Shown in pieces: positions 1 through 60,300 of a stretch of DNA of 64,000 nt. How positions within the stretch are numbered: the stretch's first letter is position 1; each line of letters starts with the position of its first letter. The stretch lies in assembly GCA_018389105.1 (NCBI GenBank), contig JACATO010001730.1:1-64000 (forward strand), in the 5' to 3' direction. The notes below the pieces were generated by a model, which had not been told where the DNA came from, ran no database searches, and saw nothing but the letters and a program-made list of their open reading frames with translations. The position numbers and the translations under genes are program-made. The stretch is from Nautilus pompilius (taxonomy: Eukaryota > Mollusca > Cephalopoda > Nautilida > Nautilidae).

Positions 1-197
1 CTCGTAATTAACCTATAAAGTAAAGTGAATTCCATGCAAAGGGTCATGTTATTTTAGCTGAACTAAGAGAGGCAGAATATTGGTCATATTTTCTTAAGGA
101 GTTTTCGCTTATGCTTCGATTTATTGAAAACGATGCTTCTGAAAATCGAAAGCTTACAAATATTCAAAATTTTTAGAAAAAAAATAATAATGTATCA

Positions 198-268
198 GGT
201 CCCACCGAGATTCGAACTCAGATCGCTGGAATCAAAGTCCAGAGTGCTAACCGTTACACCATGGAACC
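198..268 (-). tRNA. tRNA-Gln (TTG), unit 1
   Basis: 71 bases. Read on the minus strand it begins GGTTCCATGGTGTAACGG and carries anticodon TTG in the context GGACTTTGATTCC. The B box is GAGTTCGAATC. The seven-pair acceptor stem contains one T-G wobble, and the T arm also pairs with one wobble. An A8 run on the plus strand at 177-184 gives a T8 terminator about 13 bases past the 3' end. A TATA-like element starts 24 bases upstream (283-292). Expected to decode CAA. Confidence 0.95.
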
Positions 269-282
269 AAGTCGCAACCTGC

Positions 283-292
283 TTTTACTATA
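283..292 (-). promoter_or_regulatory. TATA-like element of the TTG tRNA gene (unit 1 representative)
   Basis: TATAGTAAAA on the minus strand beginning 24 bases before the tRNA. It lies at -22 to -24 in 14 units. The two exceptions, unit 3 (about -28) and unit 16 (TACAG), are also the two units whose tRNA bodies are mutated. Confidence 0.5.
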
Positions 293-295
293 ACA

Positions 296-318
296 GTAAA
301 GATATTTGCTATCTTTAC
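296..318. repeat. Short inverted repeat upstream of the TTG tRNA gene (unit 1 representative)
   Basis: GTAAAGATA, five-base loop, TATCTTTAC: a perfect 9-base stem lying 28-50 bases upstream of the TTG tRNA. It recurs in all units, usually as GTAAAAGATA with the same right arm. It may be a protein-binding dyad or a cruciform; function unknown. Confidence 0.6.
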
Positions 319-662
319 ACATCATCAAATTTACTATCGCCTCATCAATGGTATTAAAAATTTCTCAGACAATTTTACAAAAGCGCGTCTCTTCGTTTAG
401 ATCAAACTATTCATATTTCTTTCTTATGTTTGTATAATCGGTATTAATGTTTCTGACTGCTTTTTGCTATGTGCTCAGCGTTATAAAGGAAGGACTTTCA
501 GTTCGCATTCTTACTATTCATTCAATGTTTAATTTCAATCTACCACAACGTGAAATTTATCTGTTCCGGGATAAGATTCTCAGGCGAACGTTATGTCTCG
601 AAAATTTGTAATGTATCAAACAAAATTAAAAATCACAATTGATTCAAACAATTCTACACTGG

Positions 663-666
663 AAAA
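663..666 (-). terminator. Pol III terminator of the CTG tRNA gene (unit 1 representative)
   Basis: TTTT on the minus strand directly abutting the 3' end of the tRNA, the first T being the discriminator position. The same arrangement is present in every unit. Confidence 0.7.
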
Positions 667-736
667 GGTCCCACCGAGATTTGAACTCGGATCGCTGGAT
701 TCAGAGTCCAAAGTGCTACCATTACACCATAGGACC
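667..736 (-). tRNA. tRNA-Gln (CTG), unit 1
   Basis: 70 bases, starting GGTCCTATGGTGTAATGG on the minus strand, with anticodon CTG in GGACTCTGAATCC and B box GAGTTCAAATC. The D loop is one base shorter than in the TTG gene. TTTT follows directly after the 3' end (663-666), a minimal Pol III terminator. TATAAAA begins 25 bases upstream (755-761). Expected to decode CAG. Confidence 0.95.
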
Positions 737-754
737 AACTACTTCCATCCAATA

Positions 755-761
755 TTTTATA
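755..761 (-). promoter_or_regulatory. TATA-like element of the CTG tRNA gene (unit 1 representative)
   Basis: TATAAAA on the minus strand, first base 25 bases before the mature 5' end. It is conserved in essentially every unit (TATAAAT in unit 11). Upstream TATA elements near -25 are known to stimulate Pol III on some insect and plant tRNA genes; a role here is inferred. Confidence 0.55.
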
Positions 762-1503
762 ACTTCTTTTTTATATCGATTGACCTTTCATTTTTCATTT
801 TTCTTTTCTCTAAATTCTTATGTTTATACTATTTCCTTTCTGTATGTCCATTCTCTTCCTCTGACATTAGAATATATATTATTCTAGTATGTATTACTTC
901 ATAAGCATTCACATTCGTTCCATATTACAATTTTGGCTACAATCTTTACTTTCTTTGAATAGAATTTTTCTTTTTAAATTTTTCCATCCATTTTTCACCC
1001 AAGCGAAATTTTAAATATTCACTGTCCACAGTTATGTTGAAATGAAATACTTTTCCATAAAAATTGGATGCACCATTTCAGCGACGCTACCATGTGCACA
1101 CCTGAAAGCTCTCGATCATTTTAATTACCTTTGACTCAACAGTTCTGAAGCATGAGCCTTCTGCCTCATGTCACAGATTCGTTGGGATGTCCTTATGTTC
1201 TTCCGTAAATATTAATGCATTGAATACATTCTATAAAACGGAAGGTAAATGGATCAAAATTCCCATAAATATTGGAATATATTTGAATGATGTATCACTT
1301 TTCTAATCTCGTAATTAACCTATAAAGTAAAGTGAATTCCATTCAAAGGGTCATGTTGCATTTTAGCTGAACTACAGAGAGGCAGAATATTGGTCATATT
1401 TCTTTAAAGGAGTTTCGCTTATGCTTCGATTTATTGAAACGATGCCTCTGAAAATCGAAAGCTTACAAATATTCAAAATTTTTAGAAGAATAATAATGTA
1501 TCA

Positions 1504-1574
1504 GGTCCCACCGAGATTCGAACTCAGATCGCTGGAATCAAAGTCCAGAGTGCTAACCGTTACACCATGGAACC
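1504..1574 (-). tRNA. tRNA-Gln (TTG), unit 2
   Basis: Body identical to the unit 1 TTG gene, and the 5' leader is the same as in unit 1. Confidence 0.95.
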
Positions 1575-1980
1575 AAGTCGCAACCTGCTTTTACTATAAC
1601 AGTAAAAGATATTTGCTATCTTTACACATCATCAAATTTACTATCGCCTCATATCAATGGTATTAAAAATTTCTCAGACAATTTTACAAAAGCGCGTCTC
1701 TTCGTTTAGCTCAAACTATTCATATTTCTTACTTATGTTTGTATAATCGGTATTAAATGTTTCTGACTGCCTTTTGCTATGTGCTCAGCGTTATAAAGGA
1801 AGGACTTTCAGTTCGCATTCTTACTATTCATTCAATGTTTAATTTCAATCTACCACAACGTGAAATTTATCTGTTCCGGGATAAGATTCTCAGGCGAACG
1901 TTATATCTCCGAAAATCTTTGTAATGTTATCAAACAAAATTAAAAATCACTATTGATTCAAACAAATCTACACTGGAAAA

Positions 1981-2050
1981 GGTCCCACCGAGATTTGAAC
2001 TCGGATCGCTGGATTCAGAGTCCAAAGTGCTACCATTACACCATAGGACC
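1981..2050 (-). tRNA. tRNA-Gln (CTG), unit 2
   Basis: Body identical to the unit 1 CTG gene, with TTTT immediately 3' and TATAAAA upstream. Confidence 0.95.
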
Positions 2051-2815
2051 AACTACTTCCATCCAATATTTTATAACTTCTTTTTTATATCGATTGACCT
2101 TTCATTTTTCATTTTTCTTTTCTCTAAATTCTTATGTTTATACTATTTCCTTTCTGTATGTCCATTCTCTTCCTCTGACATTAGAATATATATTATTCTA
2201 GTATGTATTACTTCATAAGCATTCACATTCGTTCCATATTACAATTTTGGCTACAATCTTTACTTTCTTTGAATTAGAATTTTTCTTTTTAAATTTTTCC
2301 ATCCATTTTTTACCCAAGCGAAATTTTAAATATTCACTGTTCACAGTTATGTTTGAAATGAAATACTTTTCCATAAAAATTGGATGCACCATTTCAGCGA
2401 CGCTACCATGTGTACACCTGAGAAGCTCACGATCATTTTAATTACCTTTGACTCAACAGTTCTATAGCATGAGCCTCTGCCTCATGTCACAGATTCGTTG
2501 GGGATGTCCTTATGTTCTTCCGTAAATATTAATGCATTGAATACATTCTATAAAAAAGGGTAATGGATCAAAATTCCCATAAATATTGGAATATATTTGA
2601 ATGATGTATCACTTTTCTAATCTCGTAATTAACCTATAAAGTAAAGTGAATTCCATTCAAAGGGTCATGTTGCATTTTAGCTGAACTACAGAGAGGCAGA
2701 ATATTGTCATATTTCTTTAAAGGAGTTTCGCTTATGCTTCGATTTATTGAAACGATGCTTCTGAAAATCGAAAGCTTACAAATATTCAAAATTTTAGAAA
2801 AATAATAATGTATCA

Positions 2816-2886
2816 GGTCACACCGAGATTCGAACTCATATCGCTGGAATCAAAGTCCAAACTGCTAACCGTTACACCATGGAACC
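2816..2886 (-). tRNA. tRNA-Gln (TTG), unit 3, probably decayed
   Basis: The anticodon TTG is kept, but there are several changes in the body: one base in the 3' acceptor strand (TGTGACC for TGGGACC), two near the 5' side of the anticodon stem, and one in the T stem that breaks a pair. The upstream TATA-like element sits about 28 rather than 24 bases from the gene because of a 4-base insertion in the leader. The number of lesions suggests a pseudo-tRNA; expression cannot be judged from sequence. Confidence 0.8.
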
Positions 2887-3296
2887 AAGTCGCAGCCTGT
2901 TTTCTTTTACTATAAGCGTAAAAGATATTTGCTATCTTTACACATCATCAAATTTACTATCGCCTCATATCAATGGTATTAAAAATTTCTCAGACAATTT
3001 TACAAAAGCGCGTCTCTTCGTTTAGCTCAAACTATTCATATTTCTTTCTTATGTTTGTATAATCGGTATTAAATGTTTCTGACTGCTTTTTGCTATGTGC
3101 TCAGCGTTATAAAGGAAGGACTTTCAGTTCGCATTCTTACTATTCATTCAATGTTTAATTTCAATCTACCACAACGTGAAATTTATCTGTTCCGGGATAA
3201 GATTCTCAGGCGAACGTTATGTCTCCGAAAATCTTTGTAATGTTATCAAACAAAATTAAAAATCACAATTGATTCAAACAATTCTACACTGGAAAA

Positions 3297-3366
3297 GGTC
3301 CCACCGAGATTTGAACTCGGATCGCTGGATTCAGAGTCCAAAGTGCTACCATTACACCATAGGACC
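3297..3366 (-). tRNA. tRNA-Gln (CTG), unit 3
   Basis: Intact body although its TTG partner in this unit is damaged. The leader has one substitution (ACTACC for ACTTCC on the plus strand). Confidence 0.95.
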
Positions 3367-4122
3367 AACTACTACCATCCAATATTTTATAACTTCTTTT
3401 TTATATCGATTGACCTTTAATTTTTCATTTTTTCTTTTCTCTAAATTCTTATGTTTATACTATTTCCTTTCTGTATGTCCATTCTCTTCCTCTGACATTA
3501 GAATATATATTATTCTAGTATGTATTACTTCTTAAGCATTCACATTCGTTCCATATTACAATTTTGGCTACAATCTTTACTTTCTTTGAAATAGAATTTT
3601 TCTTTTCAAATTTTCCATCCATTTTTCACCCAAGCGAAATTTTAAATATTCACTGTTCACAGTATGTTTGAAATGAAATACTTTTCCATAAAAATTGGAT
3701 GCACCATTTCAGCGAAGCTACCATATGCACACCTGAAAAGCTCACGATCATTTTAATTACCTTTGACTCAACAGTTCTGAAGCAAGACCCTCTGCCTCAT
3801 AAAAATGTCACAGATTCGTTGGGGATGTCCTTATGTTCTTCCGTAAATATTAATGCATTGAACACATTCTATAAAACGGAAAGGATAAATATTCGAATAT
3901 ATTTGAATGATGTATCACTTTTCTAATCTCGTAATTAACCTATAAAGTAAAGTGAATTCCATTCAAAGGGTCATGTTGCATTTTAGCTGAACTACAGAGA
4001 GGCAGAATATTGGTCATATTTCTTTAAAGGAGTTTCGCTTATGCTTCGATTTATTGAAACGATGCTTCTGAAAATCGAAAGCTTACAAATATTCAAAATT
4101 TTTAGAAAATAATAATGTATCA

Positions 4123-4193
4123 GGTCCCACCGAGATTCGAACTCAGATCGCTGGAATCAAAGTCCAGAGTGCTAACCGTTACACCATGGAACC
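4123..4193 (-). tRNA. tRNA-Gln (TTG), unit 4
   Basis: Canonical body. The leader is the ACATAC variant rather than the ACCTGC of units 1-2. The downstream T run is only four bases long, the shortest in the array. Confidence 0.95.
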
Positions 4194-4598
4194 AAGTCGC
4201 AACATACTTTTACTATAACCGTAAAAGATATTTGTTATCTTTACACATCATCAAATTTACTATCGCCTCATATCAATGGTATTAAAAATTTCTCAGACAA
4301 TTTTACAAAAGCGCGTCTCTTCGTTTAGATCAAACTATTCATATTTCTTCCTTATGTTTGTATAATCGGTATTAAATGTTTGTGACTGCTTTTTGCTATG
4401 TGCTCAGCGTTATAAAGGAAGGACTTTCAGTTCGCATTCTTACTATTCATTCAATGTTTAATTTCAATCTACCACAACGTGAAATTTATCTGTTCCGGGA
4501 TAAGATTCTCAGGCGAACGTTATGTCTCCGAAAATCTTTGTAATGTTATCAAACAAAATTAAAAATCACAATTGATTCAAACAATCTACACTGGAAAA

Positions 4599-4668
4599 GG
4601 TCCCACCGAGATTTGAACTCGGATCGCTGGATTCAGAGTCCAAAGTGCTACCATTACACCATAGGACC
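4599..4668 (-). tRNA. tRNA-Gln (CTG), unit 4
   Basis: Canonical body. One T is missing in the 3' flank (ACAATCTACAC), beyond the terminator. Confidence 0.95.
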
Positions 4669-5439
4669 AACTACTTCCATCCAATATTTTATAACTTCTT
4701 TTTTATATCGATTGACCTTTCATTTTTCATTTTTCTTTTCTCTAAATTCTTATGTTTATATTATTTCCTTTCTGTATGTCCATTCTCTTCCTCTCACATT
4801 AGAATATATATTATTCTAGTATGTATTACTTCATAAGCATTCACATTCGTTCCATATTACAATTTTGGCTACAATCTTTACTTTCTTTGAAATAGAATTT
4901 TTTTTTGAAATTTTTCAATCGATTTTTCACCCAAGCGAAATTTTAAATATTCACTGTTCACAGTTATGTTTGAAATGAAATACTTTTCCATAAAAATTGG
5001 ATGCATCATTTCAGCGAAGCTAGCATATGCACACCTGAAAAGCTCACGATCATTTTAATTACCTTTGACTCAACAGTTCTGAAGCATGACCCTCTGCCTC
5101 ATGTCACAGATTCGTTGGGGATGTCCTTATGTTCTTCCGTAAATATTAATGCATTGAATACATTCTATAAAACGGAAAGGGTAAATGGATCAAAATTCCC
5201 ATAAATATTGGAATATATTTGAATGATGTATCACTTTTCTAATCTCGTAATTAACCTATAAAGTAAAGTGAATTCCATTCAAAGGGTCATGTTGCATTTT
5301 AGCTGAACTACAGAGAGGCAGAATATTGGTCATATTTCTTTAAAGGAGTTTCGCTTATGCTTCGATTTATTGAAACGATGCTTCTGAAAATCGAAAGCTT
5401 ACAAATATTCAAAATTTTTAGAAAAATAATAATGTATCA

Positions 5440-5510
5440 GGTCCCACCGAGATTCGAACTCAGATCGCTGGAATCAAAGTCCAGAGTGCTAACCGTTACA
5501 CCATGGAACC
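5440..5510 (-). tRNA. tRNA-Gln (TTG), unit 5
   Basis: Canonical body. The leader next to the gene reads AAGTTCCAACCTGC on the plus strand, a variant unique to this unit. Confidence 0.95.
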
Positions 5511-5916
5511 AAGTTCCAACCTGCTTTTACTATAACCGTAAAAGATATTTGTTATCTTTACACATCATCAAATTTACTATCGCCTCATATCAATGGTATT
5601 AAAAATTTCTCAGACAATTTTACAAAAGCGCGTCTCTTCGTTTAGATCAAACTATTCATATTTCTTCCTTATGTTTGTATAATCGGTATTAAATGTTTGT
5701 GACTGCTTTTTGCTATGTGCTCAGCGTTATAAAGGAAGGACTTTCAGTTCGCATTCTTACTATTCATTCAATGTTTAATTTCAATCTACCACAACGTGAA
5801 ATTTATCTGTTCCGGGATAAGATTCTCAGGCGAACGTTATGTCTCCGAAAATCTTTGTAATGTTATCAAACAAAATTAAAAATCACAATTGATTCAAACA
5901 ATTCTACACTGGAAAA

Positions 5917-5986
5917 GGTCCCACCGAGATTTGAACTCGGATCGCTGGATTCAGAGTCCAAAGTGCTACCATTACACCATAGGACC
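5917..5986 (-). tRNA. tRNA-Gln (CTG), unit 5
   Basis: Canonical body, leader and terminator. Confidence 0.95.
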
Positions 5987-6756
5987 AACTACTTCCATCC
6001 AATATTTTATAACTTCTTTTTTATATCGATTGACCTTTCATTTTTCATTTTTCTTTTCTCTAAATTCTTATGTTTATACTATTTCCTTTCTGTATGTCCA
6101 TTCTCTTCCTCTGACATTAGAATATATATTATTCTAGTATGTATTACTTCATAAGCATTCACATTCGTTCCATATTACAATTTTGGCTACAATCTTTACT
6201 TTCTTTGAAATAGAATTTTTTTTTCAAATTTTCCATCCATTTTTTCACCCAAGCGAAATTTAAATATTCACTGTTCACAGTTATGTTTGAAATGAAATAC
6301 TTTTCCATAAAAATTGGATGCACCATTTCAGCGAAGCTACCATGTGCACACCTGAAAAGCTCACGATCATTTTAATTACCTTTGACTCAACAGTTCTGAA
6401 GCATGACCCTCTGCCCTCATGTCACAGATTCGTTGGGGATGTCCTTATGTTCTTCCGTAAATATTAATGCATTGAATACATTCTATAAAACGGAAAGGGT
6501 AAATGGATCAAATTCCCATAAATATTGGAATATATTTGAATGATGTATCACTTTTCTAATCTCGTAATTAACCTATAAAGTAAAGTGAATTCCATTCAAA
6601 GGGTCATGTTGCATTTTAGCTGAACTACAGAGAGGCAGAATATTGGTCATATTTCTTTAAAGGAGTTTCGCTTATGCTTCGATTTATTGAAACGATGCTT
6701 CTGAAAATCGAAAGCTTACAAATATTCAAAATTTTTAGAAAAATAATAATGTATCA

Positions 6757-6827
6757 GGTCCCACCGAGATTCGAACTCAGATCGCTGGAATCAAAGTCCA
6801 GAGTGCTAACCGTTACACCATGGAACC
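6757..6827 (-). tRNA. tRNA-Gln (TTG), unit 6
   Basis: Canonical body; ACATAC leader type as in unit 4. Confidence 0.95.
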
Positions 6828-7233
6828 AAGTCGCAACATACTTTTACTATAACCGTAAAAGATATTTGTTATCTTTACACATCATCAAATTTACTATCGC
6901 CTCATATCAATGGTATTAAAAATTTCTCAGACAATTTTACAAAAGCGCGTCTCTTCGTTTAGATCAAACTATTCATATTTCTTCCTTATGTTTGTATAAT
7001 CGGTATTAAATGTTTGTGACTGCTTTTTGCTATGTGCTCAGCGTTATAAAGGAAGGACTTTCAGTTCGCATTCTTACTATTCATTCAATGTTTAATTTCA
7101 ATCTACCACAACGTGAAATTTATCTGTTCCGGGATAAGATTCTCAGGCGAACGTTATGTCTCCGAAAATCTTTGTAATGTTATCAAACAAAATTAAAAAT
7201 CACAATTGATTCAAACAATTCTACACTGGAAAA

Positions 7234-7303
7234 GGTCCCACCGAGATTTGAACTCGGATCGCTGGATTCAGAGTCCAAAGTGCTACCATTACACCATAGG
7301 ACC
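7234..7303 (-). tRNA. tRNA-Gln (CTG), unit 6
   Basis: Canonical body. The distal upstream spacer has small deletions (7350-7460) that leave the TATA element unchanged. Confidence 0.95.
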
Positions 7304-8069
7304 AACTACTTCCATCCAATATTTTATAACTTCTTTTTTATATCGATTGACCTTTAATTTTCATTTTTCTTTTCTCTAAATTCTTATTTTATACTATTTC
7401 CATTCTGTATGTCCATTCTCTTCCTCTGACATTAGAATATATATTATTCTAGTATATTACTTCATAAGCATTCACATTCGTTCCATATTACAATTTTGGC
7501 TACAATCTTTACTTTCTTTGAAATAGAATTTTTTTTTCAAATTTTTCATCGATTTTTCACCCAAGCGAAATTTTAAATATTCACTGTTCACAGTTATGTT
7601 TGAAATGAAATACTTTTCCATAAAAATTGGATGCACCATTTCAGCGAAGCTAGTATATGCACACCTGAAAAGCTCACGATCATTTTAATTACCTTTGACT
7701 CAACAGTTCTGAAGCATGACCCTCTGCCTCATGTCACAGATTCGTTGGGGATGTCCTTATGTTCTTCCGTAAATATTAATGCATTGAATACATTCTATAA
7801 AACGGAAAGGGTAAATGGATCAAAATTCCCATAAATATTGGAATATATTTGAATGATGTATCACTTTTCTAATCTCGTAATTAACCTATAAAGTAAAGTG
7901 AATTCCATTCAAAGGGTCATGTTGCATTTTAGCTGAACTACAGAGAGGCAGAATATTGGTCATATTTCTTTAAAGGAGTTTCGCTTATGCTTCGATTTAT
8001 TGAAACGATGCTTCTGAAAATCGAAAGCTTACAAATATTCAAAATTTTTAGAAAAATAATAATGTATCA

Positions 8070-8140
8070 GGTCCCACCGAGATTCGAACTCAGATCGCTG
8101 GAATCAAAGTCCAGAGTGCTAACCGTTACACCATGGAACC
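8070..8140 (-). tRNA. tRNA-Gln (TTG), unit 7
   Basis: Canonical body. The leader is one base shorter, moving the TATA-like element to about -23. Confidence 0.95.
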
Positions 8141-8544
8141 AAGTCCAACCATATTTTACTATAACCGTAAAAGATATTTGTTATCTTTACACATCATCAA
8201 ATTTACTATCGCCTCATATCAATGGTATTAAAAATTTCTCAGACAATTTTACAAAAGCGCGTCTCTTCGTTTAGATCAAACTATTCATATTTCTTCCTAT
8301 GTTTGTATAATCGGTATTAAATGTTTGTGACTGCTTTTTGCTATGTGCTCAGCGTTATAAAGGAAGGACTTTCAGTTCGCATTCTTACTATTCATTCAAT
8401 GTTTAATTTCAATCTACCACAACGTGAAATTTATCTGTTCCGGGATAAGATTCTCAGGCGAACGTTATGTCTCCGAAAATCTTTGTAATGTTATCAAACA
8501 AAATTAAAAATCACAATTGATTCAAACAATTCTACACTGGAAAA

Positions 8545-8614
8545 GGTCCCACCGAGATTTGAACTCGGATCGCTGGATTCAGAGTCCAAAGTGCTACCAT
8601 TACACCATAGGACC
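8545..8614 (-). tRNA. tRNA-Gln (CTG), unit 7
   Basis: Canonical body and flanks. Confidence 0.95.
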
Positions 8615-9387
8615 AACTACTTCCATCCAATATTTTATAACTTCTTTTTTATATCGATTGACCTTTAATTTTTCATTTTTCTTTTCTCTAAATTCTTATG
8701 TTTATACTATTTCCTTTCTGTATGTCCATTCTCTTCCTCTGACATTAGAATATATATTATTCTAGTATGTATTACTTCATAAGCATTCACATTCGTTCCA
8801 TATTACAATTTTGGCTACAATCTTTACTTTTTTTTGAAATAGATTTTTTTTTTTCAAATTTTTCATCCATTTTTTCACCCAAGCGAAATTTTAAATATTC
8901 ACTGTTCACAGTTATGTTTGAAATGAAATACTTTTCCATAAAAATTGGATGCACCATTTCAGCGACGCTACCATGTGCACACCTGAGAAGCTCACGATCA
9001 TTTTAATTACCTTTGACTCAACAGTTCTAAAGCATGAGCCTCTGCCTCATGTCACAGATTCGTTGGGGATGTCCTTATGTTCTTCCGTAAATATTAATGC
9101 ATTGAATACATTCTATAAAACGGAAAGGGTAAATGGATCAAAATTCCCATAAATATTGGAATATATTTGAATGATGTATCACTTTTCTAATCTCGTAATT
9201 AACCTATAAAGTAAAGTGAATTCCATTCAAAGGGTCATGTTGCATTTTAGCTGAACTACAGAGAGGCAGAATATTGGTCATATTTCTTTAAAGGAGTTTC
9301 GCTTATGCTTCGATTTATTGAAACGATGCTTCTGAAAATCGAAAGCTTACAAATATTCAAAATTTTTAGAAAAATAATAATGTATCA

Positions 9388-9458
9388 GGTCCCACCGAGA
9401 TTCGAACTCAGATCGCTGGAATCAAAGTCCAGAGTGCTAACCGTTACACCATGGAACC
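9388..9458 (-). tRNA. tRNA-Gln (TTG), unit 8
   Basis: Canonical body; ACATAC leader type with -24 TATA-like element. Confidence 0.95.
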
Positions 9459-9864
9459 AAGTCGCAACATACTTTTACTATAACCGTAAAAGATATTTGT
9501 TATCTTTACACATCATCAAATTTACTATCGCCTCATATCAATGGTATTAAAAATTTCTCAGACAATTTTACAAAAGCGCGTCTCTTCGTTTAGATCAAAC
9601 TATTCATATTTCTTCCTTATGTTTGTATAATCGGTATTAAATGTTTGTGACTGCTTTTTGCTATGTGCTCAGCGTTATAAAGGAAGGACTTTCAGTTCGC
9701 ATTCTTACTATTCATTCAATGTTTAATTTCAATCTACCACAACGTGAAATTTATCTGTTCCGGGATAAGATTCTCAGGCGAACGTTATGTCTCCGAAAAT
9801 CTTTGTAATGTTATCAAACAAAATTAAAAATCACAATTGATTCAAACAATTCTACACTGGAAAA

Positions 9865-9934
9865 GGTCCCACCGAGATTTGAACTCGGATCGCTGGATTC
9901 AGAGTCCAAAGTGCTACCATTACACCATAGGACC
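9865..9934 (-). tRNA. tRNA-Gln (CTG), unit 8
   Basis: Canonical body and flanks. Confidence 0.95.
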
Positions 9935-10709
9935 AACTACTTCCATCCAATATTTTATAACTTCTTTTTTATATCGATTGACCTTTCATTTTTCATTTTT
10001 CTTTTCTCTAAATTCTTATGTTTATACTATTTCCATTCTGTATGTCCATTCTCTTCCTCTGACATTAGAATATATATTATTCTAGTATGTATTACTTCAT
10101 AAGCATTCACATTCGTTCCATATTACAATTTTGGCTACAATCTTTACTTTCTTTGAAATAGAATTTTTCTTTTTAAATTTTTCCATCCATTTTTCACCCA
10201 AGCGAAATTTTAAATATTCACTGTTCACAGTTATGTTTGAAATGAAATACTTTTCCATAAAAATTGGATGCACCATTTCAGCGACGCTACCATGTGCACA
10301 CCTGAGAAGCTCACGATCATTTTAATTACCTTTGACTCAACAGTTCTGAAGCATGACCCTCTGCCTCATGTCACAGATTCGTTGGGGATGTCCTTATGTT
10401 CTTCCGTAAATATTAATGCATTGAATACATTCTATAAAACGGAAAGGGTAAATGGATCAAAATTCCCATAAATATTGGAATATATTTGAATGATGTATCA
10501 CTTTTCTAATCTCGTAATTAACCTATAAAGTAAAGTGAATTCCATTCAAAGGGTCATGTTGCATTTTAGCTGAACTACAGAGAGAGAGGCAGAATATTGG
10601 TCATATTTCTTTAAAGGAGTTTCGCTTATGCTTCGATTTATTGAAACGATGCTTCTGAAAATCGAAAGCTTACAAATATTCAAAATTTTAGAAAAATAAT
10701 AATGTATCA

Positions 10710-10780
10710 GGTCCCACCGAGATTCGAACTCAGATCGCTGGAATCAAAGTCCAGAGTGCTAACCGTTACACCATGGAACC
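10710..10780 (-). tRNA. tRNA-Gln (TTG), unit 9
   Basis: Canonical body. The leader has a C-to-T change (AAGTTGCAAC). The spacer of this unit carries an extra GAGA (10578 region). Confidence 0.95.
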
Positions 10781-11186
10781 AAGTTGCAACATACTTTTAC
10801 TATAACCGTAAAAGATATTTGTTATCTTTACACATCATCAAATTTACTATCGCCTCATATCAATGGTATTAAAAATTTCTCAGACAATTTTACAAAAGCG
10901 CGTCTCTTCGTTTAGATCAAACTATTCATATTTCTTTCTTATGTTTGTATAATCGGTATTAAATGTTTGTGACTGCTTTTTGCTATGTGCTCAGCGTTAT
11001 AAAGGAAGGACTTTCAGTTCGCATTCTTACTATTCATTCAATGTTTAATTTCAATCTACCACAACGTGAAATTTATCTGTTCCGGGATAAGATTCTCAGG
11101 CGAACGTTATGTCTCCGAAAATCTTTGTAATGTTATCAAACAAAATTAAAAATCACAATTGATTCAAACAATTCTACACTGGAAAA

Positions 11187-11256
11187 GGTCCCACCGAGAT
11201 TTGAACTCGGATCGCTGGATTCAGAGTCCAAAGTGCTACCATTACACCATAGGACC
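11187..11256 (-). tRNA. tRNA-Gln (CTG), unit 9
   Basis: Canonical body and flanks. Confidence 0.95.
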
Positions 11257-12026
11257 AACTACTTCCATCCAATATTTTATAACTTCTTTTTTATATCGAT
11301 TGACCTTTAATTTTTCATTTTTCTTTTCTCTAAATTCTTATGTTTATACTATTTCCTTTCTGTATGTCCATTCTCTTCCTCTGACATTAGAATATATATT
11401 ATTCTAGTATATATTACTTCATAAGCATTCACATTCGTTCCATATTACAATTTTGGCTACAATCTTTACTTTCTTTGAAATAGAATTTTTCTTTTCAAAT
11501 TTTTCCATCCATTTTTCACCCAAGCGAAATTTTAAATATTCACTGTTCACAGTTATGTTTGAAATGAAATACTTTTCCATAAAAATTGGATGCACCATTT
11601 CAGCGACGCTACCATATGCACACCTGAAAGCTCACGATCATTTTAATTACCTTTGACTCAACAGTTCTGAAGCATGACCCTCTGCCTCATGTCACAGATT
11701 CGTTGGGGATGTCCTTATGTTCTTCCGTAAATATTAATGCATGAATACATTCTATAAAACGGAAAGGGTAAATGGATCAAAATTCCCATAAATATTGGAA
11801 TATATTTGAATGATGTATCACTTTTCTAATCTCGTAATTAACCTATAAAGTAAAGTGAATTCCATTCAAAGGGTCATGTTGCATTTTAGCTGAACTACAG
11901 AGAGGCAGAATATTGGTCATATTTCTTTAAAGGAGTTTCGCTTATGCTTCGATTTATTGAAACGATGCTTCTGAAAATCGAAAGCTTACAAATATTCAAA
12001 ATTTTTAGAAAAATAATAATGTATCA

Positions 12027-12097
12027 GGTCCCACCGAGATTCGAACTCAGATCGCTGGAATCAAAGTCCAGAGTGCTAACCGTTACACCATGGAACC
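12027..12097 (-). tRNA. tRNA-Gln (TTG), unit 10
   Basis: Canonical body. The leader is two bases shorter, so the TATA-like element lies near -22. Confidence 0.95.
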
Positions 12098-12500
12098 AAG
12101 TCGCAACAATTTTACTATAACCGTAAAAGATATTTGTTATCTTTACACATCATCAAATTTACTATCGCCTCATATCAATGGTATTAAAAATTTCTCAGAC
12201 AATTTTACAAAAGCGCGTCTCTTCGTTTAGATCAAACTATTCATATTTCTTCCTTATGTTTGTATAATCGGTATTAAATGTTTGTGACTGCTTTTTGCTA
12301 TGTGCTCAGCGTTATAAAGGAAGGACTTTCAGTTCGCATTCTTACTATTCATTCAATGTTTAATTTCAATCTACCACAACGTGAAATTTATCTGTTCCGG
12401 GATAAGATTCTCAGGCGAACGTTATGTCTCCGAAAATCTTTGTAATGTTATCAAACAAAATTAAAAATCACAATTGATTCAAACAATCTACACTGGAAAA

Positions 12501-12570
12501 GGTCCCACCGAGATTTGAACTCGGATCGCTGGATTCAGAGTCCAAAGTGCTACCATTACACCATAGGACC
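12501..12570 (-). tRNA. tRNA-Gln (CTG), unit 10
   Basis: Canonical body; shares the one-T deletion in the 3' flank with unit 4. Confidence 0.95.
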
Positions 12571-13346
12571 AACTACTTCCATCCAATATTTTATAACTTC
12601 TTTTTTATATCGATTGACCTTTCATTTTTCATTTTCTTTTCTCTAAATTCTTATGTTTATACTATTTCCTTTCTGTATGTCCATTCTCTTCCTCTGACAT
12701 TAGAATATATATTATTCTAGTATGTATTACTTCATAAGCATTCACATTCGTTCCATATTACAATTTTGGCTACAATCTTTACTTTCTTTGAAATAGAATT
12801 TTTCTTTTTAAATTTTTCCATCCATTTTTCACCCAAGCGAAATTTTAAATATTCACTGTTCACAGTTATGTTTGAAATGAAATACTTTTCCATAAAAATT
12901 GGATGCACCATTTCAGCGACGCTACCATGTGCACACCTGAGAAGCTCACGATCATTTTAATTACCTTTGACTCAACAGTTCTGAAGCATGAGCCTCTGCC
13001 TCATAAAAATGTCACAGATTCGTTGGGGATGTCCTTATGTTCTTCCGTAAATATTAATGCATTGAATACATTCTATAAAACGGAAAGGGTAAATGGATCA
13101 AAATTCCCATAAATATTGGAATATATTTGAATGATGTATCACTTTTCTAATCTCGTAATTAACCTATAAAGTAAAGTGAATTCCATTCAAAGGGTCATGT
13201 TGCATTTTAGCTGAACTACAGAGAGGCAGAATATTGGTCATATTTCTTTAAAAGAGTTTCGCTTATGCTTCGATTTATTGAAACGATGCTTCTGAAAATC
13301 GAAAGCTTACAAATATTCAAATTTTTAGAAAAATAATAATGTATCA

Positions 13347-13417
13347 GGTCCCACCGAGATTCGAACTCAGATCGCTGGAATCAAAGTCCAGAGTGCTAAC
13401 CGTTACACCATGGAACC
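13347..13417 (-). tRNA. tRNA-Gln (TTG), unit 11
   Basis: Canonical body; leader variant AAGTGGCAAC, shared with units 13 and 14. Confidence 0.95.
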
Positions 13418-13823
13418 AAGTGGCAACATACTTTTACTATAACCGTAAAAGATATTTGTTATCTTTACACATCATCAAATTTACTATCGCCTCATATCAA
13501 TGGTATTAAAAATTTCTCAGACAATTTTACAAAAGCGCGTCTCTTCGTTTAGATCAAACTATTCATATTTCTTCCTTATGTTTGTATAATCGGTATTAAA
13601 TGTTTGTGACTGCTTTTTGCTATGTGCTCAGCGTTATAAAGGAAGGACTTTCAGTTCGCATTCTTACTATTCATTCAATGTTTAATTTCAATCTACCACA
13701 ACGTGAAATTTATCTGTTCCGGGATAAGATTCTCAGGCGAACGTTATGTCTCCGAAAATCTTTGTAATGTTATCAAACAAAATTAAAAATCACAATTGAT
13801 TCAAACAATTCTACACTGGAAAA

Positions 13824-13893
13824 GGTCCCACCGAGATTTGAACTCGGATCGCTGGATTCAGAGTCCAAAGTGCTACCATTACACCATAGGACC
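13824..13893 (-). tRNA. tRNA-Gln (CTG), unit 11
   Basis: Canonical body. One T is lost from the upstream element, giving TATAAAT instead of TATAAAA. Confidence 0.95.
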
Positions 13894-14661
13894 AACTACT
13901 TCCATCCAATATTTATAACTTCTTTTTTATATCGATTGACCTTTAATTTTTCATTTTCTTTTCTAAATTCTTATGTTTATACTATTTCCTTTCTGTATGT
14001 CCATTCTCTTCCTCTGACATTAGAATATATATTATTCTAGTATGTATTACTTCATAAGCATTCACATTCGTTCCATATTACAATTTTGGCTACAATCTTT
14101 ACTTTCTTTGAAATAGAATTTTTCTTTTCAAATTTTTCCATCCATTTTTCACCCAAGCGAAATTTTAAATATTCACTGTTCACAGTTATGTTTGAAATGA
14201 AATACTTTTCCATAAAAATTGGATGCACCATTTCAGCGACGCTACCATGTGCACACCTGAGAAGCTCACGATCATTTTAATTACCTTTGACTCAACAGTT
14301 CTGAAGCATGACCCTCTGCCTCATGTCACAGATTCGTTGGGGATGTCCTTATGTTCTTCCGTAAATATTAATGCATTGAATACATTCTATAAAACGGAAA
14401 GGGTAAATGGATCAAAATTCCCATAAATATTGGAATATATTTGAATGATGTATCACTTTTCTAATCTCGTAATTAACCTATAAAGTAAAGTGAATTCCAT
14501 TCAAAGGGTCATGTTGCATTTTAGCTGAACTACAGAGAGGCAGAATATTGGTCATATTTCTTTAAAGGAGTTTCGCTTATGCTTCGATTTATTGAAACGA
14601 TGCTTCTGAAAATCGAAAGCTTACAAATATTCAAAATTTTTAGAAAAATAATAATGTATCA

Positions 14662-14732
14662 GGTCCCACCGAGATTCGAACTCAGATCGCTGGAATCAAA
14701 GTCCAGAGTGCTAACCGTTACACCATGGAACC
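14662..14732 (-). tRNA. tRNA-Gln (TTG), unit 12
   Basis: Canonical body; leader one base shorter (AAGTGCAAC). Confidence 0.95.
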
Positions 14733-15137
14733 AAGTGCAACATACTTTTACTATAACCGTAAAAGATATTTGTTATCTTTACACATCATCAAATTTACTA
14801 TCGCCTCATATCAATGGTATTAAAAATTTCTCAGACAATTTTACAAAAGCGCGTCTCTTCGTTTAGATCAAACTATTCATATTTCTTCCTTATGTTTGTA
14901 TAATCGGTATTAAATGTTTGTGACTGCTTTTTGCTATGTGCTCAGCGTTATAAAGGAAGGACTTTCAGTTCGCATTCTTACTATTCATTCAATGTTTAAT
15001 TTCAATCTACCACAACGTGAAATTTATCTGTTCCGGGATAAGATTCTCAGGCGAACGTTATGTCTCCGAAAATCTTTGTAATGTTATCAAACAAAATTAA
15101 AAATCACAATTGATTCAAACAATTCTACACTGGAAAA

Positions 15138-15207
15138 GGTCCCACCGAGATTTGAACTCGGATCGCTGGATTCAGAGTCCAAAGTGCTACCATTACACCA
15201 TAGGACC
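15138..15207 (-). tRNA. tRNA-Gln (CTG), unit 12
   Basis: Canonical body and proximal flanks. Confidence 0.95.
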
Positions 15208-15978
15208 AACTACTTCCATCCAATATTTTATAACTTCTTTTTTATATCGATTGACCTTTAATTTTTCATTTTTCTTTTCTCTAAATTCTTATTTTTATAC
15301 TATTTCCATTCTGTATGTCCATTCTCTTCCTCTGACATTAGAATATATATTATTCTAGTATATATTACTTCATAAGCATTCACATTCGTTCCATATTACA
15401 ATTTTGGCTACAATCTTTACTTTCTTTGAAATAGAATTTTTCTTTTAAATTTTTCATCCATTTTTCACCCAAGCGAAATTTTAAATATTCACTGTTCACA
15501 GTTATGTTTGAAATGAAATACTTTTCCATAAAAATTGGATGCACCATTTCAGCGACGCTACCAATGCACACCTGAGAAGCTCACGATCATTTTAATTACC
15601 TTTGACTCAACAGTTCTGAAGCATGACCCTCTGCCTCATGTCACAGATTCGTTGGGGATGTCCTTATGTTCTTCCGTAAATATTAATGCATTGAATACAT
15701 TCTATAAAACGGAAAGGGTAAATGGATCAAAATTCCCATAAATATTGGAATATATTTGAATGATGTATCACTTTTCTAATCTCGTAATTAACCTATAAAG
15801 TAAAGTGAATTCCATTCAAAGGGTCATGTTGCATTTTAGCTGAACTACAGAGAGGCAGAATATTGGTCATATTTCTTTAAAGGAGTTTCGCTTATGCTTC
15901 GATTTATTGAAACGATGCTTCTGAAAATCGAAAGCTTACAAATATTCAAAATTTTTAGAAAAAAATAATAATGTATCA

Positions 15979-16049
15979 GGTCCCACCGAGATTCGAACTC
16001 AGATCGCTGGAATCAAAGTCCAGAGTGCTAACCGTTACACCATGGAACC
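15979..16049 (-). tRNA. tRNA-Gln (TTG), unit 13
   Basis: Canonical body. The downstream T run is longer here than in most units (A7 on the plus strand just before ATAATAATG). Confidence 0.95.
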
Positions 16050-16455
16050 AAGTGGCAACATACTTTTACTATAACCGTAAAAGATATTTGTTATCTTTAC
16101 ACATCATCAAATTTACTATCGCCTCATATCAATGGTATTAAAAATTTCTCAGACAATTTTACAAAAGCGCGTCTCTTCGTTTAGATCAAACTATTCATAT
16201 TTCTTCCTTATGTTTGTATAATCGGTATTAAATGTTTTTGACTGCTTTTTGCTATGTGCTCAGCGTTATAAAGGAAGGACTTTCAGTTCGCATTCTTACT
16301 ATTCATTCAATGTTTAATTTCAATCTACCACAACGTGAAATTTATCTGTTCCGGGATAAGATTCTCAGGCGAGCGTTATATCTCCGAAAATCTTTGTAAT
16401 GTTATCAAACAAAATTAAAAATCACAATTGATTCAAACAATTCTACACTGGAAAA

Positions 16456-16525
16456 GGTCCCACCGAGATTTGAACTCGGATCGCTGGATTCAGAGTCCAA
16501 AGTGCTACCATTACACCATAGGACC
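16456..16525 (-). tRNA. tRNA-Gln (CTG), unit 13
   Basis: Canonical body; one extra T in the A/T run of the upstream element. Confidence 0.95.
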
Positions 16526-17305
16526 AACTACTTCCATCCAATATTTTTATAACTTCTTTTTTATATCGATTGACCTTTAATTTTTCATTTTTTCTTTTCT
16601 CTAAATTCTTATGTTTATACTATTTCCTTTCTGTATGTCCATTCTCTTCCTCTGACATTAGAATATATATTATTCTAGTATGTATTACTTCATAAGCATT
16701 CACATTCGTTCCATATTACAATTTTGGCTACAATCTTTACTTTCTTTGAAATAGAATTTTTCTTTTCAAATTTTTCAATCGATTTTTCACCCAAGCGAAA
16801 TTTTAAATATTCACTGTTCACAGTTATGTTCAAAATTAAATACTTTTCCATAAAAATTGGATGCACCATTTCAGCGAAGCTAGCATATGCACACCTGAAA
16901 AGCTCACGATCATTTTAATTACCTTTGACTCAACAGTTCTAAAGCAAGACCTTCTGCCTCATAAAAATGTCACAGATTCGTTGGGGATGTCCTTATGTTC
17001 TTCCGTAAATATTAATGCATTGAATACATTCTATTAAACGGAAAGGGTAAATGGATCAAAATTCCCATAAATATTGGAATATATTTGAATGATGTATCAC
17101 TTTTCTAATCTCGTAATTAACCTATAAAGTAAAGTGAATTCCATTCAAAGGGTCATGTTGCATTTTAGCTGAACTACAGAGAGGCAGAATATTGGTCATA
17201 TTTCTTTAAAGGAGTTTCGCTTATGCTTCGATTTATTGAAACGATGCTTCTGAAAATCGAAAGCTTACAAATATTCAAAATTTTTAGAAAAATAATAATG
17301 TATCA

Positions 17306-17376
17306 GGTCCCACCGAGATTCGAACTCAGATCGCTGGAATCAAAGTCCAGAGTGCTAACCGTTACACCATGGAACC
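17306..17376 (-). tRNA. tRNA-Gln (TTG), unit 14
   Basis: Canonical body; AAGTGGCAAC leader. Confidence 0.95.
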
Positions 17377-17782
17377 AAGTGGCAACATACTTTTACTATA
17401 ACCGTAAAAGATATTTGTTATCTTTACACATCATCAAATTTACTATCGCCTCATATCAATGGTATTAAAAATTTCTCAGACAATTTTACAAAAGCGCGTC
17501 TCTTCGTTTAGATCAAACTATTCATATTTCTTCCTTATGTTTGTATAATCGGTATTAAATGTTTGTGACTGCTTTTTGCTATGTGCTCAGCGTTATAAAG
17601 GAAGGACTTTCAGTTCGCATTCTTACTATTCATTCAATGTTTAATTTCAATCTACCACAACGTGAAATTTATCTGTTCCGGGATAAGATTCTCAGGCGAA
17701 CGTTATGTCTCCGAAAATCTTTGTAATGTTATCAAACAAAATTAAAAATCACAATTGATTCAAACAATTCTACACTGGAAAA

Positions 17783-17852
17783 GGTCCCACCGAGATTTGA
17801 ACTCGGATCGCTGGATTCAGAGTCCAAAGTGCTACCATTACACCATAGGACC
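17783..17852 (-). tRNA. tRNA-Gln (CTG), unit 14
   Basis: Canonical body and proximal flanks. Confidence 0.95.
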
Positions 17853-18623
17853 AACTACTTCCATCCAATATTTTATAACTTCTTTTTTATATCGATTGAC
17901 CTTTAATTTTTCATTTTTCTTTTCTCTAAATTCTTATTTTTATACTATTTCCATTCTGTATGTCCATTCTCTTCCTCTGACATTAGAATATATATTATTC
18001 TAGTATATATTACTTCATAAGCATTCACATTCGTTCCATATTACAATTTTGGCTACAATCTTTACTTTCTTTGAAATAGAATTTTTTTTTGAAATTTTTC
18101 AATCGATTTTTCACCCAAGCGAAATTTTAAATATTCACTGTTCAAAGTTATTTTCAAAATTAAATACTTTTCCATAAAAATTGGATGCATCATTTCAGCG
18201 AAGCTAGTATATGCACACCTGAAAAGCTCACGATCATTTTAATTACCTTTGACTCAACAGTTCTGAAGCATGACCCTCTGCCTCATGTCACAGATTCGTT
18301 GGGGATGTCCTTATGTTCTTCCGTAAATATTAATGCATTGAATACATTCTATAAAACGGAAAGGGTAAATGGATCAAAATTCCCATAAATATTGGAATAT
18401 ATTTGAATGATGTATCACTTTTCTAATCTCGTAATTAACCTATAAAGTAAAGTGAATTCCATTCAAAGGGTCATGTTGCATTTTAGCTGAACTACAGAGA
18501 GGCAGAATATTGGTCATATTTCTTTAAAGGAGTTTCGCTTATGCTTCGATTTATTGAAACGATGCTTCTGAAAATCGAAAGCTTACAAATATTCAAAATT
18601 TTTAGAAAAATAATAATGTATCA

Positions 18624-18694
18624 GGTCCCACCGAGATTCGAACTCAGATCGCTGGAATCAAAGTCCAGAGTGCTAACCGTTACACCATGGAACC
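18624..18694 (-). tRNA. tRNA-Gln (TTG), unit 15
   Basis: Canonical body. The leader is one base shorter, and two extra A enlarge the upstream hairpin region. Confidence 0.95.
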
Positions 18695-19103
18695 AAGTCG
18701 CAACATATTTTACTATAACCGTAAAAAAGATATTTGTTATCTTTACACATCATCAAATTTACTATCGCCTCATATCAATGGTATTAAAAATTTCTCAGAC
18801 AATTTTACAAAAGCGCGTCTCTTCGTTTAGATCAACTATTCATATTCATTTCTTCTTATGTATGTATAATCGGTATTAAATGTTTGTGACTGCTTTTTGC
18901 TATGTGCTCAGCGTTATAAAGGAAGGACTTTCAGTTCGCATTCTTACTATTCATTCAATGTTTAATTTCAATCTACCACAACGTGAAATTTATCTGTTCC
19001 GGGATAAGATTCTCAGGCGAACGTTATGTCTCCGAAAATCTTTGTAATGTTATCAAACAAAATTAAAAATCACAATTGATTCAAACAATTCTACACTGGA
19101 AAA

Positions 19104-19173
19104 GGTCCCACCGAGATTTGAACTCGGATCGCTGGATTCAGAGTCCAAAGTGCTACCATTACACCATAGGACC
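19104..19173 (-). tRNA. tRNA-Gln (CTG), unit 15
   Basis: Canonical body. The more distal spacer of this unit (19415-19450) is strongly diverged from all other units. Confidence 0.95.
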
Positions 19174-19938
19174 AACTACTTCCATCCAATATTTTATAAC
19201 TTCTTTTTTATATCGATTGACCTTTAATTTTTCATTTTTCTTTTCTCTAAATTCTTATGTTTATACTATTTCCTTTCTGTATGTCCATTCTCTTCCTCTG
19301 ACATTAGAATATATATTATTCTAGTATGTATTACTTCTTAAGCATTCACATTCGTTCCATATTACAATTTTGGCTACAATCTTTACTTTCTTTGAATTAG
19401 AATTTTTCTTTTCAAATTTGTCCTTTGATTTTTTCTCCACGAGAAAGTTTAAATATTCACTGTCCACAGATATGTTTGAAATGAAATACTTTTCCATAAA
19501 AATTGGATGCACCATTTCAGCGAAGCTACCATATGCACACCTGAAAAGCTCTCGATCATTTTAATTACCTTTGACTCAACAGTTCTGAAGCATGACCCTC
19601 TGCCTCATAAAGATGTCACAGATTCGTTGGGGATGTCCTTATGTTCTTCCGTAAATATTAATGCATTGAATACATTCTATAAAATGGATCGAAATTCCCA
19701 TAAATATTGGAATATATTTGAATGATGTATCACTTTTCTAATCTCGTAATTAACCTATAAAGTAAAGTGAATTCCATTCAAAGGGTCATGTTGCATTTTA
19801 GCTGAACTACAGAGAGGCAGAATATTGGTCATATTTCTTTAAAGGAGTTTCGCTTATGCTTCGATTTATTGAAACGATGCTTCTGAAAATCGAAAGCTTA
19901 CAAATATTCAAAATTTTTAGAAAAATAATAATGTATCA

Positions 19939-20009
19939 GGTCCCACCGAGATTCGAACTCAGATCGCTGGAATCAAAGTCCAGAGTGCTAACCGTTACAC
20001 AATGGAACC
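19939..20009 (-). tRNA. tRNA-Gln (TTG), unit 16, possibly inactive
   Basis: One change in the body (GGTTCCATTGTG for GGTTCCATGGTG, position 9, at the edge of the A box). In addition the upstream TATAGTAAAA has become TACAGTAAAA. This is the last TTG gene of the array. Activity is doubtful, but folding is hardly affected. Confidence 0.85.
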
Positions 20010-20415
20010 AAGTCCCAACCCGATTTTACTGTAACCGTAAAAGATATTTGCTATCTTTACACATCATCAAATTTACTATCGCCTCATATCAATGGTATTA
20101 AAAATTTCTCAGACAATTTTACAAAAGCGCGTCTCTTCGTTTAGATCAAACTATTCATATTTCTTCCTTATGTTTGTATAATCGGTATTAAATGTTTGTG
20201 ACTGCTTTTTGCTATGTGCTCAGCGTTATAAAGGAAGGACTTTCAGTTGGCATTCTTACTATTCATTCAATGTTTAATTTCAATCTACCACAACGTGAAA
20301 TTTATCTGTTCCGGGATAAGATTCTCAGGCGAACGTTATGTCTCCGAAAATCTTTGTAATGTTATCAAACAAAATTAAAAATCACAATTGATTCAAACAA
20401 TTCTACACTGGAAAA

Positions 20416-20485
20416 GGTCCCACCGAGATTTGAACTCGGATCGCTGGATTCAGAGTCCAAAGTGCTACCATTACACCATAGGACC
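20416..20485 (-). tRNA. tRNA-Gln (CTG), unit 16
   Basis: Canonical body at the array end. The leader has small changes (ACTACCCATCC and CATTATTTTATA on the plus strand) that keep TATAAAA. Confidence 0.95.
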
Positions 20486-21192
20486 AACTACTACCCATCC
20501 ATTATTTTATAACTTCTTTTTTATATCGATTGACCTTTAATTTTTCATTTTTCTTTTCTCTAAATTCTTATGTTTATACTATTTCCTTCTGTATGTCCAT
20601 TCTCTTCCTCTGACATTAGAATATATATTATTCTAGTATATATTACTTCATAAGCATTCACATTCGTTCCATATTACAATTTTGGCTACAATCTTTACTT
20701 TCTTTGAAATAGAATTTTTCTTTTCAAATTTTCCATCCATTTTTCACCCAAGCGAAATTTTAAATATTCACTGTTCACAGTTATGTTTGAAATGAAATAA
20801 TTTTCCATAAAAATTGGATGCACCTTTTCTGCGACGCTACCATATGCACACCTGAGAAGCTCACGATCATTTTAATTACCTTTGACTCAACAGTTCTGAA
20901 GCATGACCCTCTGCCTCATGTCACAGATTCGTTGGGGATGTCCTTATGTTCTTCCGTAAATATTAATGCATTGAATACATTCTATAAAACGGAAAGGGTA
21001 AATGGATCAAAATTCCCATAAATATTGGAATATATTTGAATGATGTATCACTTTTCTAATCTCGTAATTAACCTATAAAGTAAAGAGACTTCCATTCAAA
21101 GGGTCATGTTGCATTTTAGTTGAACTGCAGAGATGCAGAATATAGGTCATCTTTCATTAATGGAGTTTCTCTTATCCTTTCGATGTATTAAT

Positions 21193-40194: not shown

Positions 40195-40381
40195 ACTGAT
40201 GCAGAGTTACGCCGCTCTTCAGCTAATAGTTGCATTTGTCGGAGAGTCAATTTGCTGGGAATACAGTTAGTGTCATCTATAATCGCTCCGGATCTCGTTG
40301 GAACCGAGCAGTTTCCAGTAGCTTATGACGCTATGAACACGATCTTTGGACTAAGTTTCGTTCTGTCTGGACTATTTGCAG
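40195..40381 (+). pseudogene. SLC16-like exon 4 fragment D
   Basis: Matches the 3' part of exon 4 in genes A and B: a GCAGAGTTACGCC block corresponding to GCGGAGAGCTACACC, then DLVGTEQFPVAYDAMNT and VLSGLFAG just before a former donor site (GCATTTATT, where A and B have GTATTTATT). A one-base frameshift lies upstream of DLVGTE. No other exon of this copy is visible, so it is a relic. The long open frame running on into GA repeats is not a gene. Confidence 0.75.
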
Positions 40382-40479
40382 GCATTTATTGTTACAAGAA
40401 ATGTAATCGAAAATATGTAAACCCTAAAAATGGTAACTCCGGGCAGCTGGAAAATCTGGCAGCGATTTATAAGTTTCGG

Positions 40480-60070: not shown

Positions 60071-60300
60071 GTGTAGCTCTCCACAAACGGAAGTAGAAGG
60101 ATGGCATTTCCGGTTGTCATCGACGTCAGAAGTATATGCACGTGCCTGTACAAAATTTGAAAAAGTTCAGCACGATGACAAAGACGGGACAAAACAGTGT
60201 AGCAGGAAGTATATATATATATATAGTAAAAGTACACTTTGGAATTCGAACTGATTTGTTCCAGTCCACAGTCTACAACCATGACGGTGATGTGTGTGTC
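60071..60300 (-). pseudogene. SLC16-like exon 4 fragment E
   Basis: On the minus strand it reads ITVMVVDCGLEQ, matching VTMMIVDYGREK of gene A. An insertion with a TA microsatellite follows, then the equivalent of LFRPVFVLLLNAFKFCSG as far as the ESYT region, where one missing base shifts the frame. The neighbouring exons are absent, so it is a relic. It lies inside the larger duplicated region. Confidence 0.7.

Follow-up and report, generated by a model that had tools for sequence, protein, structure and literature searches.

A 64-kb window (64,000 nucleotides) of Nautilus pompilius DNA, taken from the beginning of contig C1652, was found to open with a tandem array of glutamine transfer RNA (tRNA-Gln) genes. 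Each unit of the array carries one gene with the anticodon TTG and one with CTG. The array is likely a single-locus, multicopy tRNA array of RNA polymerase III (Pol III), similar to ribosomal DNA (rDNA) or 5S arrays; its units would be multiplied and made uniform by unequal crossing over, and it would supply both Gln isoacceptors. It has the features of the eukaryotic tandem tRNA gene arrays of the Entamoeba and Hydractinia type, namely a repeated unit that includes the spacer, intact genes and a single locus. Tandem arrays of tRNA genes, though uncommon, have been described before, and the Nautilus array is a new example of them, not a new kind of thing.

Organisation of the Array

The tRNA genes of the window were predicted by ARAGORN. 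All 32 genes were tRNA-Gln on the minus strand, spanning 197 to 20485, and the anticodons alternated strictly (16 TTG and 16 CTG). Rfam RF00005 above the gathering score gave the same 32 genes with the same anticodons and no further tRNA in the window, and no other RNA family reached the gathering score there. A preliminary description of this DNA had reported sixteen units, each with a TTG and CTG pair in one orientation, giving 32 genes; both programs confirmed it. The units were arranged head to tail, with a length of 1306–1327 bp from one TTG gene to the next (n = 15 full units). All 31 gaps between adjacent tRNA genes were shorter than 800 nt by the ARAGORN coordinates.

The extent of the array had been given as 1–21192. 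The array is real, but likeness to the unit ended at 21189, so that the sixteenth unit is about 65 bp short. A hidden extra unit beyond this point was considered and rejected, as the following 1.2 kb aligned no better than shuffled sequences on either strand. An AT-rich stretch persists past the array end (21190–21750), without detectable likeness to the unit. The guanine-cytosine (GC) content was 0.326 in the array and 0.427 in the right flank within the window.

At the left edge, bases 1–164 were matched by a spacer probe and represent the tail of one more unit. Window position 1 is base 1 of the contig, which is 160,885 bp long; the assembly comprises 727.6 Mb in 2558 contigs. Since the window begins at the first base of the contig and bases 1–164 match a further unit, the array runs to the contig end, in agreement with the earlier expectation that it probably goes on past the left edge. 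The remaining 96,885 bases of the contig contained no tRNA genes by ARAGORN and no match to the unit.

The content of the spacer was also investigated. No short tandem repeats were scored within 1–21189, and no other RNA was found in the spacer at E values up to 2 in 9300–12000, about two units. Stop-to-stop frames of 113–130 aa were present in three of the 16 units; the one frame tested (7933–8274) had no Pfam match.

Divergence between Units

Pairwise identity among units 1–15, gene and spacer together, was 97.0–99.7%. Unit 16 differed from the other units by a mean of 2.9% (about 65 bases of flank left out). No two of the 16 units were identical, and private substitutions were present in 13 of them: 4, 8 and 7 in units 1–3, 0–3 in each of units 4–14, 12 in unit 15 and 20 in unit 16. 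Among units 1–15, seven of the eight closest pairs (0.3–0.6% apart) fell within units 8–12. The Spearman coefficient between divergence and inter-unit distance was 0.37 for pairs of units 1–15, which are not independent of each other. The inner units were thus most alike and the outer units most diverged, the pattern that unequal exchange would give in a real array.

State of the tRNA Genes

Of the 32 genes, 31 looked intact, the exception being the TTG gene of unit 3. The 16 CTG genes were identical, each scoring 64.8 bits with Rfam. The TTG genes were identical in 14 of 16 copies; scores were 61.2 bits in 14, 57.9 in unit 16 and 38.0 in unit 3. The TTG gene of unit 3 had four changes in 72 bases, all within stems, and three of them broke pairs. 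Accordingly, three cloverleaf mismatches were counted in this copy and none in the CTG gene, the consensus TTG gene or the unit-16 TTG gene. This decayed TTG gene stands in an otherwise uniform array; unit 3 as a whole has 7 private substitutions.

Variation in gene and spacer was compared over the 16 copies. The CTG gene was variable at none of 71 columns, and the spacer at 105 of 1204 (Fisher p 0.003). Sequences around the genes were inspected by eye. With its last base included, the CTG gene led into TTTT in all 16 copies, and TATAAA stood about 25 bases upstream of it in all 16. A run of at least four T started within 20 bases past the TTG gene in every copy except that of unit 2 (15 of 16). 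Pol III makes use of TATA-like elements lying upstream and of T runs.

Distribution in the Assembly and Other Gln Genes

A spacer probe of 481 bp (10200–10680, about a third of the unit) was searched across the 727.6-Mb assembly, and all 17 matches fell in the array. An assembly-wide pattern search with 70 bases of the CTG gene and up to 3 mismatches gave 16 matches, all of them in the array as well. The counts of pattern searches are lower bounds, very common words being skipped, and the gene pattern was that of the CTG gene. By the spacer probe and the CTG gene, the units are confined to a single locus and are not dispersed. It had been considered earlier that the same pairs might lie singly elsewhere and be collapsed here; this was not the case, as both queries occurred only in the array and no units were identical. 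A tRNA-derived short interspersed nuclear element or other transposon was not supported, since the spacer probe was found nowhere else in the assembly (common words skipped). As expected, neither the unit nor the gene had an exact match in viral or prokaryote contigs, with one pattern used for each.

A 1400-base query found at least four other places in the assembly, each resembling a gene only (the array itself was not in the list). These were a single TTG gene on C565, CTG genes on C1806 and C624, and a gene-like stretch on C325 (Table 1). At position 38 of the anticodon loop, all 16 array TTG genes had T, whereas the C565 TTG gene had A. T38 of the array TTG genes may affect modification or decoding. 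The array CTG gene (71 nt) had a D-loop one base shorter than that of the C1806 CTG gene. T38 in the TTG gene and the short D-loop in the CTG gene would make the array products recognisable. The array genes are distinct from the single Gln genes, so tRNA sequencing could show whether the arrayed copies are used, a question left open in the available parts of the Hydractinia and Entamoeba papers (PMC11067881, PMC2652664).

Proposed Origin

The two halves of the unit shared the genes only, the next best match between them having an E value of 0.17. The array TTG and CTG genes differed at 9 of 73 columns. Each array gene differed from the C565 TTG gene at 5 columns; from the C1806 CTG gene, the array CTG gene differed at 6 columns and the array TTG gene at 7. 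A recent duplication within the unit followed by an anticodon change was not supported, given that the halves share the genes only and the genes differ at 9 of 73 columns in this comparison of five short sequences. Linkage of two existing genes, followed by amplification of the block, appears to fit these thin data better.

The following course is proposed. Two tRNA-Gln genes, one for each anticodon, would have come to lie some 400 bp apart and in one orientation, before the resulting block of 1.3 kb was amplified head to tail. Unequal crossing over and gene conversion would amplify the units and homogenise them. Each gene would be a separate Pol III unit, with a promoter inside it and a terminator of its own. 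The array would yield ordinary Gln-tRNA, from the two kinds of gene at a ratio near 1:1, and its effect would be on dosage. Copy number probably differs from one individual to another, with no need for fine tuning. The presence of a broken TTG copy and of a diverged unit at the edge suggests that single copies are dispensable.

Several observations weigh against a homogenised array that supplies both isoacceptors. Over all 16 copies, the TTG gene was variable at 5 of 72 columns, no less than the spacer (p 0.83), and four of these five columns stemmed from unit 3. When units 3 and 16 were set aside, a post hoc choice, both genes together were variable at 0 of 143 columns and the spacer at 82 of 1204 (p 0.0001). 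The TTG gene is more conserved than the spacer only when unit 3 is dropped after the fact. As for the CTG gene, variation was likewise absent from 36 of the 1063 71-column windows of the spacer, so its uniformity is good though not unique evidence of selection. Unequal exchange is what we infer from the divergence pattern. Finally, because single Gln genes exist on other contigs, the array is not the sole source of Gln-tRNA and adds to them.

Alternative Explanations

Chance expansion of little benefit is a possible, though less favoured, explanation. Unequal exchange would make the array grow and shrink, copy number would be nearly neutral, and many of the copies may be silent. The divergence at the edges and the one broken copy are consistent with this. 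So is the lack of further RNA families, both in the window (gathering score) and in about two units (E values up to 2). The authors of the E. histolytica study judged many arrayed copies there more likely to be inactive (PMC2652664). Identity of all 16 CTG copies while the spacers vary argues against chance expansion.

A high demand for glutamine decoding, for example by Gln-rich secreted, adhesive or silk-like proteins, with copy number kept by selection, is rather unlikely. It agrees with the intact look of 31 of the 32 genes, all for one amino acid, and with the retention of both anticodons in 15 of 16 units; one broken TTG copy is nevertheless tolerated, and Gln genes also lie singly on other contigs.

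The array may, at a low probability, encode a dedicated Gln isodecoder pair distinct from the single-copy Gln tRNAs, given that the 71-nt CTG gene with the short D-loop was found nowhere else and that the TTG genes of the array have T38 where the C565 TTG gene has A. Such isodecoders could be expressed in a particular tissue or stage, for the translation of Gln-rich proteins, the tuning of decoding or the supply of tRNA fragments.

A structural role, as a boundary or chromatin element of the kind proposed for the human 1q23.3 tRNA repeat, is very improbable for the Nautilus array. The contrast in GC content between the array and the flank would suit such a role, and the human repeat provides a precedent (PMC4041453). 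A CTCF-like core, allowed up to 2 mismatches, matched the window 8 times, where 8.1 matches would be expected, and none of the 8 lay in the array; this motif comes from vertebrates and may not hold for this host. A boundary role was thus not supported, no CTCF site per unit of the 1q23.3 type being found with the vertebrate motif. The earlier suggestion of a selfish or structural Pol III array was not borne out, the spacer not being dispersed and the CTCF-like core being absent from the array, although both tests are weak.

Multiplication of a few units by the assembler is highly improbable: the array lies at the very end of a contig, where assemblies are weakest, but no two units are identical, 13 of 16 bear private substitutions, likeness stops at 21189 with the next 1.2 kb aligning no better than shuffles, and an assembler repeating one unit would hardly yield units that are similar in the centre and diverged at the edges.

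Comparison with Known tRNA Arrays

The preliminary description stated that some animals are known to have tandem tRNA arrays, which holds for Hydractinia and human 1q23.3. The tandem arrangement has been called unusual outside Entamoeba, with one mammalian example (PMC11067881). tRNA tandem arrays occur in Hydractinia and also in Nematostella (PMC11067881). Those of Hydractinia resemble the Nautilus array in being animal tRNA tandem arrays, whereas they cover tRNAs of all 20 amino acids and other RNAs (PMC11067881).

Nearly all the tRNA genes of E. histolytica are contained in array units, of which there are 25 kinds (PMC2652664). Like the Nautilus array, the Entamoeba arrays consist of units joined head to tail, each with one or several tRNA genes and with AT-rich spacers, and the units of one array are mostly uniform. 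They differ in belonging to a protist, and their Gln genes share units with those of other amino acids ([TQ], [SQCK], [TQQ] and others) (PMC2652664). Table 1 of that paper has no unit made solely of two isoacceptors of one amino acid, unlike the Nautilus array (PMC2652664). The E. histolytica spacers carry short tandem repeats (PMC2652664), in contrast to the Nautilus array, where none were scored.

The human 1q23.3 repeat is likewise an animal tandem repeat in which every unit contains tRNA genes; its units are 98% identical to one another and number 9–43 per allele (PMC4041453). Its unit, in contrast, is 7.3 kb long, GC-rich and CTCF-bound, and the five tRNA genes in it lie on both strands and represent four amino acids (PMC4041453). 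In the Drosophila simulans complex, tRNA tandem arrays expand and contract (PMC7919458).

Bermudez-Santana et al. (2010) described mostly homogeneous pairs of tRNA genes in drosophilids, Tetrahymena and Monosiga, usually in parallel orientation, and tRNA tandem repeats were then known only from E. histolytica (PMC2888827). The Nautilus array falls within the definition of homogeneous tRNA clusters, with genes of one amino acid, parallel and less than 1000 nt apart (PMC2888827). Such clusters, however, are defined by distance, without reference to a repeating unit, and are mostly small (PMC2888827).

No recognisable report of a Gln array with two isoacceptors was found in the open-licence literature, among the matches listed. 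The Nautilus array adds an animal example of tRNA genes kept in the manner of rDNA, here with one amino acid and both anticodons in each unit.

Feature Coordinates and Right Flank

Table 1. The array, its tRNA-Gln genes and the similar places on other contigs. Genes of units 1–16 are based on ARAGORN and Rfam RF00005; the CTG genes were also pattern-matched in the assembly.
Feature	Position	Strand	Remarks
Tandem array: tail of a further unit (1–164), 15 full units, one unit cut at 21189	1..21189	-	unit ~1.31 kb, GC 32.6%
tRNA-Gln(TTG), unit 1	197..268	-	
tRNA-Gln(CTG), unit 1	666..736	-	
tRNA-Gln(TTG), unit 2	1503..1574	-	sole TTG copy without a four-T run within 20 bases downstream
tRNA-Gln(CTG), unit 2	1980..2050	-	
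tRNA-Gln(TTG), unit 3, probable pseudogene	2815..2886	-	38 bits, three broken stem pairs
tRNA-Gln(CTG), unit 3	3296..3366	-	
tRNA-Gln(TTG), unit 4	4122..4193	-	
tRNA-Gln(CTG), unit 4	4598..4668	-	
tRNA-Gln(TTG), unit 5	5439..5510	-	
tRNA-Gln(CTG), unit 5	5916..5986	-	
tRNA-Gln(TTG), unit 6	6756..6827	-	
tRNA-Gln(CTG), unit 6	7233..7303	-	
tRNA-Gln(TTG), unit 7	8069..8140	-	
tRNA-Gln(CTG), unit 7	8544..8614	-	
tRNA-Gln(TTG), unit 8	9387..9458	-	
tRNA-Gln(CTG), unit 8	9864..9934	-	
tRNA-Gln(TTG), unit 9	10709..10780	-	
tRNA-Gln(CTG), unit 9	11186..11256	-	
tRNA-Gln(TTG), unit 10	12026..12097	-	
tRNA-Gln(CTG), unit 10	12500..12570	-	
tRNA-Gln(TTG), unit 11	13346..13417	-	
tRNA-Gln(CTG), unit 11	13823..13893	-	
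tRNA-Gln(TTG), unit 12	14661..14732	-	
tRNA-Gln(CTG), unit 12	15137..15207	-	
tRNA-Gln(TTG), unit 13	15978..16049	-	
tRNA-Gln(CTG), unit 13	16455..16525	-	
tRNA-Gln(TTG), unit 14	17305..17376	-	
tRNA-Gln(CTG), unit 14	17782..17852	-	
tRNA-Gln(TTG), unit 15	18623..18694	-	
tRNA-Gln(CTG), unit 15	19103..19173	-	
tRNA-Gln(TTG), unit 16	19938..20009	-	one change at position 9
tRNA-Gln(CTG), unit 16	20415..20485	-	
Single TTG gene	C565		93% match to the query
CTG gene	C1806		91% match to the query
CTG gene	C624		89% match to the query
Gene-like stretch	C325		83%; not called by ARAGORN

The right flank within the window contained exons similar to monocarboxylate transporters, together with microsatellites and minisatellites. 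An inverted pair of 831-bp copies (28028–28856 and 50392–51222) was 99.4% identical and carried a monocarboxylate-transporter-like exon (MFS_1). More diverged matches to these copies (69–77%) were found at 34553–35095, 40203–40390 and 60073–60242, which together with the 831-bp copies suggest a local family. A minisatellite at 60824–61354 consisted of 16.6 copies of a 32-bp unit, and a repeat at 55556–55694 had words similar to it (GTGACGTCAC in the unit). Further along the contig (C1652:64001–160885), a 770-aa stop-to-stop frame and another transporter-like frame were present.

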